From positions 1,922,001-1,986,000 of the forward strand of contig NZ_AP028947.1 in the NCBI RefSeq assembly GCF_036323495.1: a stretch of DNA of 64,000 nt, in the 5' to 3' direction. Numbering within the stretch: position 1 is the first letter of the stretch; each line of letters opens with the position of its first letter. This stretch comes from Limnobacter thiooxidans (GTDB lineage Bacteria > Pseudomonadota > Gammaproteobacteria > Burkholderiales > Burkholderiaceae_B). Positions 54,391-61,670 of the stretch are shown here, piece after piece. The notes beneath the pieces were generated by a model. That model saw nothing but the letters and a program-made list of their open reading frames with translations, had not been told where the DNA came from and made no database searches. The position numbers were made by a program, and so were the translations under genes.

Positions 54391-54469
54391 GGTGCATGCA
54401 CCACTTCCACCAGACACGGCGCACTGATTTGCTTGGTGCGCCGCACCAAAATTGGTCTTCGCACCAAAA
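54391..54469. promoter_or_regulatory. Cluster of GGTGC/GCACC inverted repeats, candidate enhancer
   Basis: Three related elements occur: GGTGCATGCACC (54391-54402), TTGGTGCGCCGCACCAAA (54433-54450) and TTGGTCTTCGCACCAAAA (54452-54469). They lie about 60-140 bases before the sigma-54 promoter, the usual place for NtrC-type activator sites. The half-sites resemble NtrC boxes, but their order and spacing do not match exactly. Confidence 0.5.
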
Positions 54470-54528: not shown

Positions 54529-54544
54529 TGGCACGCATTCTGCT
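54529..54544 (+). promoter_or_regulatory. Sigma-54 promoter of the NrtA-like operon
   Basis: TGGCACGCATTCTGCT has the invariant GG (54530-54531) and GC (54542-54543) separated by ten bases, and nearly matches the consensus TGGCACG-N4-TTGC. Transcription should start near 54555. Confidence 0.8.
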
Positions 54545-54557
54545 TATAGGTGAATGA

Positions 54558-54623
54558 GGCTTTTGCCAAAGACGGACCAAGCCACAACAAATCAAACAAT
54601 GCAGTACTGGACAACGGCGTCCA
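54558..54623 (+). ncRNA. ANTAR-target (NasT/NasR-type) two-hairpin leader
   Basis: Hairpin 1 (54558-54583) is imperfectly paired and closes with CC/GG on the hexaloop AAAGAC. Hairpin 2 (54608-54623) is TGGAC / GTCCA around AACGGC. Both loops have A at position 1 and G at position 4, the known requirement of ANTAR protein binding. Hairpin 2 uses the 5' arm of the terminator at 54613, so forming it prevents termination. Confidence 0.72.
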
Positions 54624-54667
54624 TCCCTCTACCTGCCAGGCAGGATTGGTGATGTACGCCGTTTTTT
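54613..54667 (+). terminator. Leader terminator controlled by the ANTAR hairpin
   Basis: AACGGCGT (54613-54620) pairs with ACGCCGTT (54656-54663), with an inner CCTGC / GCAGG hairpin, and six T follow at 54662-54667. It ends 29 bases before the NrtA-like start codon. Confidence 0.75.
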
Positions 54668-54696
54668 CTTGGGTTGAACTTTCGAGGATGCACCAC

Positions 54697-56016
54697 ATGA
54701 GCAACAAACCAACCGACAACAAACCAGAGTTGTCTGAAACACGCCGCACTTTTATCAAACAATCGGCCGCCGTGTGGGGCACTACCCTGCTCGCAGGTTT
54801 TGGTGCACCGTCCATTGTGATGGCTCAATCCAGCAAGCTGGAAACCACGAAAGTAAAACTGGGATTCATCGCCCTGTCCGATGCGGCACCCCTGTTCATC
54901 GCAGAGGAAAAAGGATTTTTCAAAAAGCACGGCATGACCGATGTCGAGGTGCTCAAGCAATCCTCCTGGGGCACAACCCGCGACAACCTGGTACTGGGTT
55001 CAGCCGGCAACGGCATTGATGGTGCACACCTGCTCACACCCATGGCTTACCTGCTGACCACAGGTGCAATCACCACCAACAACATTCCGGTGCCCATGAA
55101 TATTCTTTGCCGCCTGAACCTGGATGGACAGGGCATTTCGGTCAGCAACGAATACCTGGACCTCAAGGTGGGCACCAATGCCAGTGAACTGAAAACAGCA
55201 CTGGCGGCCAAGAAAGGCGGCGGCAAGGCGGTGAATGCTGCAATGACATTCCCGGGCGGCACGCACGACCTGTGGCTGCGTTACTGGATGGCCTCGGCTG
55301 GCATTGACCCCAACAGCAGCGTGTCCACCATCGTGGTTCCTCCACCCCAGATGGTTGCGAACATGAAAGTGGGCAGCATGGACACCTTCTGCGTAGGTGA
55401 ACCCTGGAACCTGCAACTGATTCACCAGAAAATTGGTTACACGGCAGTAACTACTGGTGAGTTGTGGAACAACCACCCGGAAAAAGCATTGAGCCTGCGT
55501 GCCGATTATGTGCAAGCAAACCCCAACGCAACCAAGGCACTTCTGAAAGCCGTGATGGAAGCGCAGATTTATTGTGATGACCCTGCCAATAAGGATGAAG
55601 TTGCACGTGTCTGTTCACAGCGCAAGTGGATCAACGCACCAGTGGGCGACATTATCGAGCGTATCAAAGGCGACTTCGACTATGGCACTGGCCGCATTGA
55701 AAGCAATAGCAAACACCTGATGAAATACTGGAGAAACCAGGCTTCGTATCCTTTCCAAAGCCATGACCTTTGGTTCCTGACTGAAAACCAGCGTTGGGGC
55801 TACCTGCCAAGCAAACTCGACACGAACGCGCTGATCAAGAAAGTGAACCGCGAAGACATGTGGCGTGTTGCTGCAAAAGAATTGGGCATTGCAGCCAAAG
55901 ACATCCCAACCAGCACATCGCGTGGAGTCGAAAAATTCTTCGACGGCAAGGTGTTTGACCCCAAGAATCCGAAGGCTTATCTCGACAGCCTCGCCATCAA
56001 GGCCATGAAAGCCTGA
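54697..56016 (+). CDS. nrtA: NrtA/CmpA-like ABC substrate-binding protein, Tat signal
   Basis: The 439-residue product has a twin-arginine signal (ETRRTFIKQSAAVWGTTLL) and an NMT1/NrtA-type binding fold: VKLGFIALSDAAPLFIAEEKGFF, then MTFPGGTHDLWLRYWMA and a long C-terminal helical part. This matches nitrate, bicarbonate or cyanate binding proteins. Nitrate is favoured because of the sigma-54 promoter and ANTAR leader upstream, which are features of nitrate assimilation operons. The ATG at 54697 is chosen, with GAGG about nine bases upstream. No nitrate reductase is in the window. Confidence 0.88.
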   Translation: MSNKPTDNKPELSETRRTFIKQSAAVWGTTLLAGFGAPSIVMAQSSKLETTKVKLGFIALSDAAPLFIAEEKGFFKKHGMTDVEVLKQSSWGTTRDNLVLGSAGNGIDGAHLLTPMAYLLTTGAITTNNIPVPMNILCRLNLDGQGISVSNEYLDLKVGTNASELKTALAAKKGGGKAVNAAMTFPGGTHDLWLRYWMASAGIDPNSSVSTIVVPPPQMVANMKVGSMDTFCVGEPWNLQLIHQKIGYTAVTTGELWNNHPEKALSLRADYVQANPNATKALLKAVMEAQIYCDDPANKDEVARVCSQRKWINAPVGDIIERIKGDFDYGTGRIESNSKHLMKYWRNQASYPFQSHDLWFLTENQRWGYLPSKLDTNALIKKVNREDMWRVAAKELGIAAKDIPTSTSRGVEKFFDGKVFDPKNPKAYLDSLAIKAMKA

Positions 56017-56044: not shown

Positions 56045-56911
56045 ATGATGAACACCGACACACTAGAGCGCATTCAAGCAACACCCAAACTGCGCAGCAA
56101 ACCGCTGGTAGAAACCCGATTCTTCAGGCAGTTCAAATCGAGCTTGGGCAATGTGGTTCCGCCATTGGTCATCATGAGCCTGTTGTTGTTGATCTGGGAA
56201 ATTCTGTGCAGCGGTGAAGGTGCACGCCTTCCCGCACCCAGCAAGGTCATCACCGACACCTGGGAGCTCATTACCAATCCCTTTTACAACAACGGTGGAT
56301 CCGACGTTGGTATGGCCTGGCAAATTCTCGCCAGCCTGGAACGGGTGGCGATTGGCTACAGTCTCGCTGTTGTGGTGGGTGTGGCACTCGGTGTGTTGGT
56401 GGGTCAATCAACCTGGGCCCTGCGTGGCCTGGACCCCTTGTTTCAGGTGTTACGTACAGTACCCCCATTGGCCTGGTTACCCTTGTCGCTGGCAGGCTTT
56501 CAGGATGGCAACCCATCGGCGATTTTCGTGATTTTCATCACGGCCATTTGGCCCATCATCATCAACACCTCGGTGGGCATTCGCAACATTCCGGAAGACT
56601 ACCGAAATGTTTCTCGTGTGATTCAACACAATGGCGTCGAGTACTTCTGGAAAATCATGTTGCCTGCCGCGGCGCCTTATATTTTCTCGGGTTTGAGAAT
56701 TGGTGTGGGTTTGAGCTGGCTGGCCATTGTCGCCGCTGAAATGTTGATTGGTGGTGTGGGTATCGGCTTCTTCATCTGGGACGCCTGGAACAGCTCGCTG
56801 ATTAGCGACATCGTATTGGCACTGGTGTACGTGGGCATTGTCGGCTTCATTCTCGACCGCTGCGTGGCCTGGGTCGGCAACAAGATTACACGCGGCACTT
56901 CCGCAGCTTAA
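56045..56911 (+). CDS. nrtB: NrtB-like ABC transporter permease
   Basis: The 288-residue product has about six membrane helices and the binding-protein-dependent permease loop (EDYRNVSRVIQHNGVEYFWKIMLPAAAPYIF) that contacts the ATPase. LRTVPPLAWLPLSL is typical of the NrtB/SsuC/TauC group. An AGGA lies nine bases before the ATG at 56045; an earlier ATG at 56024 is possible. It follows nrtA by 28 bases and precedes the ATPase gene by 10. Confidence 0.9.
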   Translation: MMNTDTLERIQATPKLRSKPLVETRFFRQFKSSLGNVVPPLVIMSLLLLIWEILCSGEGARLPAPSKVITDTWELITNPFYNNGGSDVGMAWQILASLERVAIGYSLAVVVGVALGVLVGQSTWALRGLDPLFQVLRTVPPLAWLPLSLAGFQDGNPSAIFVIFITAIWPIIINTSVGIRNIPEDYRNVSRVIQHNGVEYFWKIMLPAAAPYIFSGLRIGVGLSWLAIVAAEMLIGGVGIGFFIWDAWNSSLISDIVLALVYVGIVGFILDRCVAWVGNKITRGTSAA

Positions 56912-56921
56912 GGGGCACAAC

Positions 56922-57773
56922 ATGAGCGATCGTTTTCTGAGTATTTCGCAAGTTCAAATGCGTTTTGAGCGCAATGGCATCACCAACCCGGTGTTGAAGG
57001 ACATCAACCTGGAAGTCAATCGCGGTGAATACATTTCGTTGATCGGCCATTCGGGTTGTGGCAAATCTACTGTGCTGAATATCATCGCCGGCTTGCTGAC
57101 CGCCAGCGAAGGTGTGGTGATCGTGGACAACAAGGAAGTGAATGCACCGGGGCCTGACCGTGCCCTGGTGTTTCAAAACCATTCCCTGCTGCCTTGGCTG
57201 ACTGTGTACCAGAATGTGGAAATTGCCGTTGAAAAAATCTTCAAAGGCAAGAAAAGCAAGAAGGAACAACGTGAATGGATTCTGTACAACCTGGACATGG
57301 TCAACATGAGCCATGCGCTGGATCGCTTGCCTTCAGAAATTTCAGGTGGCATGAAGCAGCGCGTGGGCATCGCCCGTGCGCTGGCCATGGAACCCAAGGT
57401 GCTGTTGCTGGACGAACCTTTCGGTGCACTTGATGCATTGACCCGCGCGCACCTCCAAGATGAAGTCATGCGCATTCAAAATGAATTGAAAAACACCGTG
57501 GTCATGATTACGCACGATGTGGATGAGGCCGTGTTGCTGTCAGACCGCATCGTGATGATGACCAACGGCCCTTCAGCCACCATCGGTCAAATTCTCGACA
57601 TTGAACTGGCCCGCCCCCGTGATCGCCTGGCCTTGGCCGACGACCCGACTTACAACCACTATCGGCATGAAGTGCTCAGTTTCCTTCACGAAAAACAGCG
57701 CAAGGTGGAAGCCATCGACAAGCACAGGCAAACCAAGGTGAAAACCGAAAGCAAAGTAACCGCCAACGGATAA
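56922..57773 (+). CDS. nrtD: NrtD/NrtC-like ABC transporter ATPase
   Basis: The 283-residue product has Walker A GHSGCGKST, the Q-loop in FQNHSLLPWLT, the signature ISGGMKQRVGIARAL, Walker B LLLDEPFGALD and the switch His in MITHDVDEA. It is the size of NrtD; the extra binding domain of NrtC is absent. AAGGGG lies six bases before the ATG. It closes the three-gene operon, and a strong terminator follows at 57795. Confidence 0.92.
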   Translation: MSDRFLSISQVQMRFERNGITNPVLKDINLEVNRGEYISLIGHSGCGKSTVLNIIAGLLTASEGVVIVDNKEVNAPGPDRALVFQNHSLLPWLTVYQNVEIAVEKIFKGKKSKKEQREWILYNLDMVNMSHALDRLPSEISGGMKQRVGIARALAMEPKVLLLDEPFGALDALTRAHLQDEVMRIQNELKNTVVMITHDVDEAVLLSDRIVMMTNGPSATIGQILDIELARPRDRLALADDPTYNHYRHEVLSFLHEKQRKVEAIDKHRQTKVKTESKVTANG

Positions 57774-57794: not shown

Positions 57795-57830
57795 AAAAAC
57801 CGCCAGGAACCTCCCCTGGCGGTTTTTTTT
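57795..57830 (+). terminator. Rho-independent terminator of the NrtABD-type operon
   Basis: AAAAACCGCCAGG pairs with CCTGGCGGTTTTT around a short loop, followed by eight T. Confidence 0.9.
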
Positions 57831-57961
57831 CGACCCTAGGGAAAGTACCAAGTGGTAAGGGTTTGCTCCAATTCAGTTAGTTTTGGTACCCCATCACAAT
57901 GCAGGTTCGAAAAGTAAAATCAAAACAACAGTCGAAAGTTACATCATTCTTAGGAGGCAAC

Positions 57962-59080
57962 ATGACTGATTCCGTGAACAACCAGAAGCGCCGTGATTTT
58001 ATCAAGGGCACATCCGTGGCCGCAGTGGGTGCAGGTGCCATGGCATTCCCCATGATTTCAACTGCACAAACAGTGAACATGCGCTTCCAGAGCACATGGC
58101 CACAGAAAGACATCTTCCATGAGTACGCGGAAGACTTCGCCAACAAAGTCAACAGCATGACCGGTGGTCGCCTGAAGATTGAAGTGCTGCCAGCCGGTTC
58201 CGTGGTCAAGGCTTTTGACCTGCTGGATGCTGTGAGCAAAGGCACACTGGACGGTGGTCATGGTGTGATCGCTTACTGGTACGGCAAGAACCCGGCTGTG
58301 GCCTTGTGGGGTTCCGGCCCAGCTTTCGGCATGGACGCCAACATGTTGCTGGCCTGGCACAATTATGGCGGCGGTAAAGAACTGCTGGAAGAAATCTACA
58401 AAGACCTGAACATGGACGTGGTGTCCTTCATGTCTGGCCCAATGCCAACACAGCCCTTGGGCTGGTTCAAAAAGCCAGTGACAAAAGCTGAAGACCTGAA
58501 AGGCCTGAAGTTCCGCACTGTGGGTTTGTCTGTGGACATGTTCACAAAAATGGGTGTGGCTGTGAACGCCTTGCCTGGTGGTGAAATTGTTCCAGCGATG
58601 GACCGTGGCTTGCTGGATGCCGCTGAATTCAACAACGCGTCTTCTGACCGTCTGTTGGGCTTCCCCGACGTATCCAAGGTGTGCATGCTGCAAAGCTTCC
58701 ACCAGTCTTCTGAACAGTTTGAAATCATGTTCAACAAGACCAAGTACAACAAGTTGCCTGCTGAACTGAAAGCCATCATCAAAGGTGCTGCTGAAGCCTC
58801 TTCTGCTGAAATGAGCTGGAAAGCAATTGACCGCTACTCCAAGGACTACGCAGAAATGCAAAGCAAACAGGGTGTGAAATTCTTCAAAACCCCTGACAGC
58901 ATTCTGAAAGCCCAATTGAAAGCGTGGGATGAAGTGACCAAGGAAAAATCCGCTGCCAACCCCATGTTCAAGAAAGTGTTCGAATCGCAGCGTGCCTTTG
59001 CAGCACGTGCAGCCAAGTGGCAAGCCGACACAACAGTCGACTTCAAGATGGCTCAAGCATTCTACGCACAGAAGAAGTAA
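57962..59080 (+). CDS. dctP: TRAP transporter substrate-binding protein DctP, Tat signal
   Basis: The 372-residue product has a twin-arginine signal (QKRRDFIKGTSVAAVGAGAM, cleavage after ISTAQ) and a DctP fold: FQSTWPQKDIFHEYAEDFAN at the start, then DLKGLKFRTVGL, whose Arg usually binds the substrate carboxylate. A Tat-exported P subunit is typical of the mannitol/chloroaromatic or alpha-keto acid subgroup. AGGAGG lies five bases before the ATG. The small and large permease genes follow after a hairpin. Confidence 0.92.
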   Translation: MTDSVNNQKRRDFIKGTSVAAVGAGAMAFPMISTAQTVNMRFQSTWPQKDIFHEYAEDFANKVNSMTGGRLKIEVLPAGSVVKAFDLLDAVSKGTLDGGHGVIAYWYGKNPAVALWGSGPAFGMDANMLLAWHNYGGGKELLEEIYKDLNMDVVSFMSGPMPTQPLGWFKKPVTKAEDLKGLKFRTVGLSVDMFTKMGVAVNALPGGEIVPAMDRGLLDAAEFNNASSDRLLGFPDVSKVCMLQSFHQSSEQFEIMFNKTKYNKLPAELKAIIKGAAEASSAEMSWKAIDRYSKDYAEMQSKQGVKFFKTPDSILKAQLKAWDEVTKEKSAANPMFKKVFESQRAFAARAAKWQADTTVDFKMAQAFYAQKK

Positions 59081-59096
59081 ATTTTGAAGCAATGAA

Positions 59097-59134
59097 AAGG
59101 CCAACAGCCCCTTGGGGTGTGTTGGCTTTTTTTT
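59097..59134 (+). terminator. Hairpin between dctP and dctQ, likely partial terminator
   Basis: GCCAACA pairs with TGTTGGC, with an inner CCCC/GGGG, followed by eight T. Its place inside the operon suggests it lowers permease expression relative to the binding protein. Confidence 0.75.
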
Positions 59135-59157
59135 ACAAGGAAGCTGAGGTTCAACCC

Positions 59158-59727
59158 ATGCTAACGTTCTTACACCTAATCGACAAAATGTCGACCAAAA
59201 TCGGTCAACTGTTCTCATGGCTGATCGTCGTGCTGACTGCAGTGATCGTATTCGAGGTTTTTACCCGATACGCATTCAATCACCCCAACCCTTGGGTGTT
59301 TGATGCCTCGTACATTTTGTACGGCATCCTGTTCATGATGGCTGGTGCATACACCCTGTCCAAGGGCGGACATGTGCGTGGCGATATTCTGTACGGCTTC
59401 TTCAGCCCAAGAACACAGGCCTCACTCGACCTGATCCTGTATTTCGTATTCTTTTTCCCCGGCATCATTGCTCTGACTTATGCAGGCTATACCTTTGCCG
59501 AAGACGCCTGGCTCATTAAGGAAATGTCCTCAGTGACAGCCGACGGCCCTCCGATTTATCCGTTCAAGACATTCATCCCGCTGGCTGGATTTTTTCTTTT
59601 ACTCCAAGGCGTCGTGGAGGTGATTCGTTGCGTGATGTGTATCAAGGCAGGTGAATGGCCGAAACGTGAAGAAGACGTTGAGGAAGTTGACGTGGAAAAA
59701 CTCAAAGCCTCACTCGGCAAGAATTAA
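59158..59727 (+). CDS. dctQ: TRAP transporter small permease DctQ
   Basis: The 189-residue product has four hydrophobic helices and the family pattern FEVFTRYAFNHPNPWVFDASYILYG. It forms the small membrane subunit that pairs with DctM. The C-terminal tail is acidic and Lys-rich (EEDVEEVDVEKLKASLGKN). The ATG at 59158 has GAGG about nine bases upstream; the open frame extends back into dctP but is not coding there. The start of dctM is 12 bases beyond its stop. Confidence 0.9.
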   Translation: MLTFLHLIDKMSTKIGQLFSWLIVVLTAVIVFEVFTRYAFNHPNPWVFDASYILYGILFMMAGAYTLSKGGHVRGDILYGFFSPRTQASLDLILYFVFFFPGIIALTYAGYTFAEDAWLIKEMSSVTADGPPIYPFKTFIPLAGFFLLLQGVVEVIRCVMCIKAGEWPKREEDVEEVDVEKLKASLGKN

Positions 59728-59738
59728 CAGGATTCAAA

Positions 59739-61670
59739 ATGAGAAAAGAACTTTATTTTGGCTTTGCCATCATGGCCATGATCCTGATCGGGGTCGGGAT
59801 CGCGATGCCACCCGTCGCGGAGATGAGCAATGGCCACTTGGGCCTGCTGATGCTGTCACTGGTGGTGGTTGCCATCATGCTGGGGTTTCCCACGGCCTTT
59901 ACGTTGATGGGTATGGGCGTGATTTTCACGTACTTTGCCTACGACCGCGACCTGGACCACACATTGAACCTGATGGTCCAATCCACTTACAAGGTGATGA
60001 CCAACGATGTGTTGATCTCGATTCCCTTGTTTGTGTTCATGGGTTACCTGGTTGAACGGGCAAACTTAATTGAAAAACTGTTCAAGTCGCTGCACTTGGC
60101 CATGGCCCGCTTGCCCGGTGCCTTGGGGGTAGCCACACTGGTGACCTGCGCAATTTTCGCGACAGCCACAGGTATTGTGGGTGCAGTGGTGACATTGATG
60201 GGTCTGCTGGCCATGCCCAGCATGATGAAAGCTGGCTACGACACTAAAATGGCTGCGGGTGTAATTACCGCGGGCGGTTGTTTGGGTATTCTGATTCCGC
60301 CTTCCGTGCTGCTGATTGTGTATGGCGCAACCGCCGGTGTGTCAGTTGTGCAGTTGTATGCCGGTGCATTTTTCCCCGGCTTGATGCTGGCAGGCATGTA
60401 CATCGCCTACGTCATCATTCGCGCAAAAATCAACCCGAAATGTGCTCCACCCTTGTCTGAAGAAGACCGCAAGGTACCACTGACACCTGTCCTGGCTTCT
60501 TTGAAAAACACCTACGGCACCAGCCGTGCAGTGTCCGCGTTGATCAACGGTTTGAAAGGTCGTCGTGAAGGTCATTTGACCAGCGGCCAAGTCGCAAATC
60601 AGTTGTTCATCGCCATGCTGCCCGCACTGTTCGCCGCATTCATTCTGGGTTTGGTGTATTCCTCGGTGACAGCGCCAAAAGAAGCTGAATTTGACACGTC
60701 CAGCCTGGTCAGTTTTGGTTCTGACTATCAAAGCGAACAGTCCAATTCATACTCTTTCGACCTGGCTGAACCAGAAGCAGAAGCCACCACGGGCTTGGCC
60801 GAACCAGCAGGTGCAGAAACTGCAGAATCCACTGCAGCACCTGCAGCAGCCGAACCAGCTGCGGTAGCTGAACCTGCAGCTGCTGCTGCAATGCCCGCTG
60901 CAGAGGCGGAGTCCACCCCAGCACCAACGAACTTCTGGATTTCACTGGCTGTTGTTGCTGCAATTTTGCTGTTTTATTATTCCAAGCTCAGCTTCGAACG
61001 CCTTGAGGTGTTCAAGATGTTGCTGTCCTCTTTCTTCCCGCTCGCCTTTTTGATTCTGGCCGTGTTGGGCAGTATCGTGTTTGGATTTGCAACACCGTCT
61101 GAAGCAGCGGCTGTGGGCGCATTTGGAGGCTTGCTGCTGGCAGCAGCCTATCGACAGTTGAATTTCAGTGTGCTGCGTGAGTCGTCCTTTTTGACCGCGA
61201 AAACCACCGCCATGGTGTGCTGGCTGTTTGTGGGTTCTTCGATTTTCTCGGCAGCTTTTGCATTGCTGGGTGGTCAGGAACTGGTTGAGCAGTGGGTACT
61301 TTCACTGGGGCTGACACCCATTGAATTCCTGTTGCTGTCACAGGTCATCATTTTCCTGTTGGGCTGGCCGCTCGAATGGACAGAGATCATCGTGATTTTC
61401 ATGCCGATCTTCATTCCATTGCTGCCCTACTTCGATGTAGACCCGCTGTTCTTCGGCCTGTTGGTTGCACTGAATCTGCAAACCGCCTTTCTGTCGCCAC
61501 CTGTGGCCATGGCAGCGTTTTACCTGAAAGGCGTATCGCCACCCGGCGTGACCTTGAACCAGATCTTCCTGGGCATGATTCCATTCATGTTCATCCAGAT
61601 CTTCGCCATGTTCGTGCTGTACGTGTTCCCGCAAATCGGCATGTGGCTGCCCGAAGTGTTGTACAGATAA
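59739..61670 (+). CDS. dctM: TRAP transporter large permease DctM with a low-complexity insert
   Basis: The 643-residue product is about 200 residues longer than typical DctM proteins (about 430). The N-terminal half has family motifs GGCLGILIPPSVLL and GIVGAVVTLMGLLAMP; the C-terminal half has FGFATPSEAAAVGAFGGLL and LNLQTAFLSPPVAMAAFYLK. Between them are extra hydrophobic segments and a hydrophilic insert, residues 311-397, whose second half (341-397) is almost only Ala, Glu, Pro and Thr. AGGA lies six bases before the ATG. It moves the DctP-bound substrate in with sodium or protons. Substrate unknown. Confidence 0.9.
   Translation: MRKELYFGFAIMAMILIGVGIAMPPVAEMSNGHLGLLMLSLVVVAIMLGFPTAFTLMGMGVIFTYFAYDRDLDHTLNLMVQSTYKVMTNDVLISIPLFVFMGYLVERANLIEKLFKSLHLAMARLPGALGVATLVTCAIFATATGIVGAVVTLMGLLAMPSMMKAGYDTKMAAGVITAGGCLGILIPPSVLLIVYGATAGVSVVQLYAGAFFPGLMLAGMYIAYVIIRAKINPKCAPPLSEEDRKVPLTPVLASLKNTYGTSRAVSALINGLKGRREGHLTSGQVANQLFIAMLPALFAAFILGLVYSSVTAPKEAEFDTSSLVSFGSDYQSEQSNSYSFDLAEPEAEATTGLAEPAGAETAESTAAPAAAEPAAVAEPAAAAAMPAAEAESTPAPTNFWISLAVVAAILLFYYSKLSFERLEVFKMLLSSFFPLAFLILAVLGSIVFGFATPSEAAAVGAFGGLLLAAAYRQLNFSVLRESSFLTAKTTAMVCWLFVGSSIFSAAFALLGGQELVEQWVLSLGLTPIEFLLLSQVIIFLLGWPLEWTEIIVIFMPIFIPLLPYFDVDPLFFGLLVALNLQTAFLSPPVAMAAFYLKGVSPPGVTLNQIFLGMIPFMFIQIFAMFVLYVFPQIGMWLPEVLYR

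Follow-up and report, generated by a model that had tools for sequence, protein, structure and literature searches.

The nrtA-type transporter operon of Limnobacter thiooxidans is preceded by an RNA leader that, we conclude with high confidence, is transcribed from a sigma-54 promoter and terminates unless NasR, with nitrate or nitrite bound, holds both of its hairpins. The sensor has probably been exchanged within the genus: NasT and NasS were lost, the one-component NasR took over both of their RNA targets and the architecture of those targets was kept. The type of switch is already known; the points added here are the apparent exchange of sensor and a new view of the Rfam families P11 and narK RNA. 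The stretch of DNA analysed (the window) comprises 64,000 nucleotides, and positions are those of the window unless they carry a contig label. An original prediction made from these letters was right on the anatomy and very probably on the mechanism.

The sigma-54 box, TGGCACGCATTCTGCT, is located at 54529-54544 on the forward strand, with the -24 GG at 54530-31 and the -12 GC at 54542-43 separated by 10 nt. It carries one mismatch to TGGCACN5TTGCW, bearing out the predicted near-consensus promoter, and its position gives a predicted transcription start at about 54555. The match was rejected as stand-alone evidence; with up to one mismatch allowed, five copies of the pattern are observed in the window against 7.8 expected, a frequency at chance. 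Our assignment relies also on conservation within the genus, where TGGCACN5CTGC is found 5′ of nrtA in 12 of the 13 loci; at the thirteenth (L020) the sequence, read by eye, is TGGCACGGCTTTCGC. The genome encodes both RpoN and NtrC, the latter above the family cut-off, and the GG-N10-GC box and RpoN fit a promoter of the sigma-54 class. An activator site in canonical form, the NtrC site TGCACCANNNTGGTGCA, was not found upstream of the nrtA promoter with up to three mismatches allowed. Six GCACC/GGTGC half-sites do cluster at 54391-54465 (no strand assigned) and include the palindrome TTGGTGCGCCGCACCAA at 54433-54449; the cluster is a candidate activator region and these are possibly NtrC sites with unusual spacing. 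Of 12 nrtA loci in the genus, nine have all six half-sites at corresponding positions, two (L014 and L015) have part of them and one (L021) has none. We note that such half-sites are also observed 5′ of nirB.

Two tandem hairpins with A1/G4 hexaloops follow, as predicted. The first, P1 (54558-54583, forward strand; assigned from sequence, fold and covariation), presents the loop AAAGAC at 54568-54573. Its outer helix pairs GGCUU (54558-62) with AAGCC (54579-83); a 3×3 internal loop separates this from the CC/GG pairs that close the hexaloop. The loop-adjacent helix is thus just 2 bp and the outer 5 bp constitute the stable part. The second, P2 (54608-54623, forward strand; assigned from sequence and fold), is the antiterminator form, in which UGGAC (54608-12) pairs with GUCCA (54619-23) around the loop AACGGC (54613-54618). 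The intrinsic terminator spans 54613-54667 on the same strand. Its 5′ arm, AACGGCGU at 54613-54620, is made up of the P2 loop and 3′ stem and pairs with ACGCCGUU at 54656-54663. The original prediction correctly put this 5′ arm in the second hairpin; it also had six T following the 3′ arm, and here it needs correction, as the six T lie at 54662-54667 and the arm includes two of these. P2 and the terminator are mutually exclusive in sequence and in predicted fold, and the two successive A1/G4 hairpins with this overlap match a two-hairpin ANTAR leader of the NasR/NasT class. The stem energies alone are −26.9 kcal/mol for the terminator vs −5.6 for P2. When the full RNA from 54555 is folded, the predicted structure comprises P1 and the terminator; when the RNA is ended after P2, it comprises P1 and P2. 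Of 200 shuffled versions of the segment 54555-54670, 196 are less stable than the original (z −2.78). A pattern taken from this leader (the box and two CAANGNCG loops) matched the genome once and its reversed control not at all; the pattern does not extend to the nirB leader described below.

The nrtA ATG is at 54697, preceded by GAGGA at 54684-54688. The gene (54697-56016, forward strand) encodes a PF13379 periplasmic binding protein whose RR signal was judged by eye to be of the Tat type. The product's nearest solved relative is NrtA (2g29) with 549 bits, vs 386 bits for the bicarbonate transporter 2i48. An nrtB permease (56045-56911; TIGR01183) and an nrtD-type ATPase (56922-57773; TIGR01184) follow on the same strand, both above the model cut-offs and with start codons assumed. 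With the NrtB and NrtCD models above cut-off and a binding protein closest to NrtA, the operon, originally predicted as NrtA-type, is of the NrtABD type, and nitrate is the likely substrate. A 15-bp hairpin with A/T flanks at 57795-57827 was found on the reverse strand (no strand is assigned to the feature); the flanking A and T runs suggest that it is used on the forward strand, where it would probably mark the end of the operon ahead of the TRAP genes. These form a TRAP transporter gene set (57956-61670), Tat-signal binding protein included, beyond this strong hairpin. A leader peptide or an in-frame extension of nrtA was considered and rejected, as the upstream open frame is not conserved among the genus loci: with the upstream extension the frame has 488 aa here vs 443-447 aa in three of 13 loci (L014, L015 and L018).

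Sixty genomes, our own included, were searched for relatives of nrtA; 32 had one at E≤1e-60, at 33 places, and 30 loci were fetched. Of these 30 loci, 26 carry the leader element; 22 were found by script and four (L013, L026, L027 and L030) by eye and with covariance model R1. In the remaining four (L020, L028, L029 and L036) a sigma-54-like box is seen 5′ of the gene, and inspection by eye revealed no such hairpins between the two. Alignment A1 was assembled from 21 leaders, namely 20 of the 22 script-found nrtA leaders (L024 and L032 excluded) and the nirB leader of this genome, with the P1 starts chosen by eye. In A1, 83.3% of the P1 and P2 cells are paired, vs 27-53% in slid controls. Both-sided changes are observed in 11 of the 15 P1/P2 pairs, and the covariation score was reached by none of 500 shuffles. 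These changes fall in nine of the 10 modelled P1 pairs and in two of the five P2 pairs; the other three P2 pairs are invariant. At each of the three inner P1 pairs, between 8 and 11 of the 21 leaders do not pair, matching the internal loop of this genus, and C-A..G..G is invariant in both hairpins. The terminator arms are paired in 82.7% of cells, with a both-sided change in one of eight pairs. Since covariation is scarce in these arms, the terminator rests on sequence and stability. We note that in the nrtA leader of G005 (L013) a base change breaks one terminator pair and leaves the rest intact, which may weaken termination.

A second model, R2, was trained on 19 leaders selected by eye (A2), all from outside the genus. 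Across the 3.54 Mb genome it gave two matches at E≤1. The first is a leader ahead of nirB and a nitrate reductase gene (G000:C1:647413-647537, E 4.4e-4). The second is the nrtA leader (G000:C1:1976552-1976666, 23.9 bits, E 0.044); taken alone this is borderline, and it has weight because it is one of only two matches in the genome at E≤1. R1, which was trained with both of these leaders, finds the same two places at E≤0.01. Over 20 sources R2 detected 12 of the 13 nrtA leaders of the genus (E≤0.05) and had no match with E≤1 at any of the four loci that lack the element; one extra match (L007:2528-2613, E 0.65) looks like chance. R1 also has third matches in two genus genomes, G007:C7:601287-601365 (E 2.8e-4) and G014:C12:177139-177249 (E 1.2e-6), which are possible extra targets of NasT.

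The leader at 647413 precedes nirB (TIGR02374, 921.5 bits) and then a frame for a molybdopterin-type nitrate reductase. A nitrate reductase operon of this kind had been proposed as something to look for, and it proved to have the same promoter and leader arrangement as nrtA. The sigma-54 box is perfect, the P1 loop is AACGGC, the P2 loop is AACGGU and the terminator overlaps P2. The P2 loop reads AACGGC in the 11 other nirB-type leaders seen in the genus, so that only position 6 differs.

The search for ANTAR genes gave a single one in this genome (G000:C1:579815-579976) and none in 14 control genomes. The original prediction thus gained the ANTAR regulator that it called for and lost the NasS/NasT pair that it suggested, since the protein is a NIT fusion of NasR type (PF08376 166.5 bits, PF03861 76.1 bits) with the ANTAR domain C-terminal. 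A REC and ANTAR protein beside an NMT1_2 protein (NasT/NasS) was not found here. The NasR frame spans approximately G000:C1:578747-580015, about 1.4 Mb from the nrt operon, and both domains match the K. oxytoca NasR structure 4akk. No sigma-54 match with fewer than two mismatches was found just upstream of nasR. In 40 genomes, our own included, an ANTAR gene is present in 20 of the 20 with an R1 match vs five of the 20 without; some of these 40 genomes had supplied leaders for the training of R1, and R1 missed the G039 leader (L022). Across the 30 nrtA loci, element and ANTAR gene occur together in 25, the element only in one (G027), the ANTAR gene only in one (G015) and neither in three (G031, G033 and G035), an association with a Fisher p of 0.004 when kinship is ignored. 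In G015, where nrtA (L020) has no leader, R1 matches elsewhere (E 3.5e-4), at a place flanked by a nasS-like frame on one side and a further NrtA-like frame on the other.

Two of 16 genus genomes, namely this one and the sister G009, have an ANTAR frame of 451-467 aa, and in 12 the frame measures 208-232 aa; the other two genomes are incomplete and none was seen. Identification of the 12 short frames as NasT is based on frame length for nine and on Pfam domains for three. Those three are REC and ANTAR proteins of NasT type, and in two genomes (G008 and G014) the adjoining gene is of NasS type (NMT1_2). A NasR query matched, within the genus, only this genome and G009. The two proteins are 93% identical; identity to the other relatives searched does not exceed 44%. 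In G008, nasT and nasS sit between a 258-aa frame, which we take to be pdxH, and a 201-aa frame. Both flanking frames are present here with 85% identity and lie 32 bases apart, and tblastn with NasT and NasS of G008 against the 10.5-kb slot region (L061) gave no match. In G014 nasT, nasS and both flanking frames are all present. The nrtA tree groups this genome with G009 (100/100), and the pair is nested in a seven-row clade (100/99) whose other members are five species with frames of NasT length. The simplest account is that nasTS was lost once and nasR gained once, while the two leaders were retained.

The leader could alternatively be a leftover ancestral NasT target that NasR does not read, with the operon mostly off or leaky. 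The NasT-length frames of most genus genomes (12 of 16), the absence of nasT and nasS from their slot and the altered P2 loop of the nirB leader are consistent with such a relic. We consider it improbable, as neither leader of this genome has lost P1, P2 or the terminator, and the NasR frame is intact and closely conserved in the sister. The leaders of this genome keep the architecture of those of its relatives without being identical to them. The outer helix of nrtA P1 differs from that of the relatives and still pairs, as selection would predict. The nrtA P1 loop is AAAGAC in both NasR genomes and also in G014, which carries NasT. A takeover of both leaders by NasR is the more probable reading. 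If the swap is true, ANTAR regulators would be able to replace one another on a conserved RNA, and what lasts in the circuit would be the RNA element rather than the protein. The sister lineages on either side of the change from NasT/NasS to NasR would then allow a test of which RNA features an ANTAR protein requires. In the literature we recognised no paper on a swap from NasTS to NasR inside a genus, nor one on narK RNA as an ANTAR leader.

An Rfam search of the leader, suggested with the original prediction, yielded no family above threshold. The best match was P11 (RF00625) with 20.9 bits vs a cut-off of 70; narK RNA (RF03032) gave 12.8 vs 43.2 (E 3.8). Both families were therefore compared with the leader through their own loci. 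P11 was searched for in 299 genomes, of which 15 had a match and 11 were above the cut-off; the loci used are L103-L117, and two more matches on the opposite strand at two of them were left unused. R1, which was built without P11, matches all 15 loci, and by script all 15 have P2 and an overlapping terminator. Read by eye, the frame downstream is NirB-like in 13 and NrtA-like in one, and the remaining locus precedes a formate/nitrite transporter; Pfam domains of the N-terminal part of NirB were checked in two of these loci. P11 is filed in Rfam as a gene ('sRNA'), vs the cis-leader architecture of its loci, and we firmly conclude that it belongs to the same class of ANTAR leader. P11 is said to have been recognised as the NalA leader by Romeo in 2012.

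The Rfam filing does lend itself to a further proposal, that the locus is a P11-like gene for a trans-acting small RNA and the terminated leader its product; default termination would indeed free a transcript of about 110 nt. We regard this as very unlikely, given that the overlapping P2 and terminator of every P11 locus, and the NirB-like frame after most of them, fit a cis leader. A trans role added to that of the cis leader may exist. P11 has been discussed in the learned avoidance of C. elegans, and it has been called a regulator of the nitrogen assimilation operon (PMC12080996).

For narK RNA, 143 genomes were searched and 15 had a match, giving 18 matches (L039-L056), one of them above the cut-off. 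R1, built without narK RNA, matches 14 (E<1e-3) of these 18 loci, and P2 with an overlapping terminator was found by script in 13. Seven downstream frames were checked and comprise four NMT1_2, two NirB-like and one with an alginate-export domain (L054); at L039 and L053, inspection by eye suggests NarK-like frames. Most matches look like this kind of leader, the narK RNA model taking in its sigma-54 promoter. Hence narK RNA is probably of the same class as well; the case is weaker than for P11 because most matches are below threshold. With P11 and probably narK RNA in one class, a single model could annotate nitrate-assimilation leaders that present thresholds miss.

Any factor that stabilises P2 could in principle control the terminator, and a ligand-binding riboswitch or another factor outside the ANTAR family might do so. 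The ANTAR signature of the loops, their co-occurrence with ANTAR genes and the resemblance to P11-type leaders make this hard to credit. Some observations do count against an ANTAR reading. The 2-bp helix closing the P1 loop is weaker than in leaders outside the genus, and covariation in the terminator is scarce. Also, G027 has the element with no ANTAR gene found, and in G015 nrtA has no element despite an ANTAR gene. The R1 miss in G039, the lack of a canonical NtrC site, the distance of nasR from the operon with no close sigma-54 match before it, and the modest R2 score of the nrtA leader count on the same side.

We nevertheless favour control by NasR, which would operate as follows. NtrC, presumably under nitrogen limitation, would activate sigma-54 polymerase and transcription would begin at about 54555. 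P1 would form first in the nascent RNA, followed by P2. By default the much stronger terminator (54613-54667) would displace P2 and transcription would stop after about 110 nt. NasR carrying nitrate or nitrite would hold P1 and P2 by their A1/G4 loops, blocking the pairing of the terminator 5′ arm, and nrtABD would be transcribed. The same NasR should govern the nirB-nasA operon through its matching leader. We infer the start site, NtrC control, NasR binding, readthrough and substrate, and likewise the originally predicted induction by nitrate or nitrite when nitrogen is limiting.

The arrangement resembles the nasF/NasR system of Klebsiella oxytoca: two hairpins with hexaloops preferring A1 and G4, the second overlapping a terminator (PMC7496416, PMC3795266, PMC5424462), read by a one-component NIT and ANTAR protein under general nitrogen (Ntr) control. 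When nitrate or nitrite is present, K. oxytoca NasR binds the two-hairpin RNA; in vitro, the readthrough reported is 52% with nitrate vs 5% without (PMC7496416). Unlike in K. oxytoca, nasR here is far from both of its targets, these are a separate NrtABD operon and nirB-nasA, and the rest of the genus has NasT-length ANTAR genes. NalA, the nirBD leader of Pseudomonas putida, likewise combines a sigma-54 promoter and NtrC with an ANTAR-controlled leader; NasT/NasS act there, vs NasR here, and the likeness is one of description (PMC12830290). The eut leaders of Enterococcus, read by EutV, share the dual hairpin, the A1/G4 hexaloop and terminator exclusion, and differ in signal, regulator architecture and genes (PMC3369931). 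The logic proposed for L. thiooxidans, with nitrogen status acting at the promoter and nitrate at the terminator, is thus a known one, placed before a separate transporter operon and in a new host.
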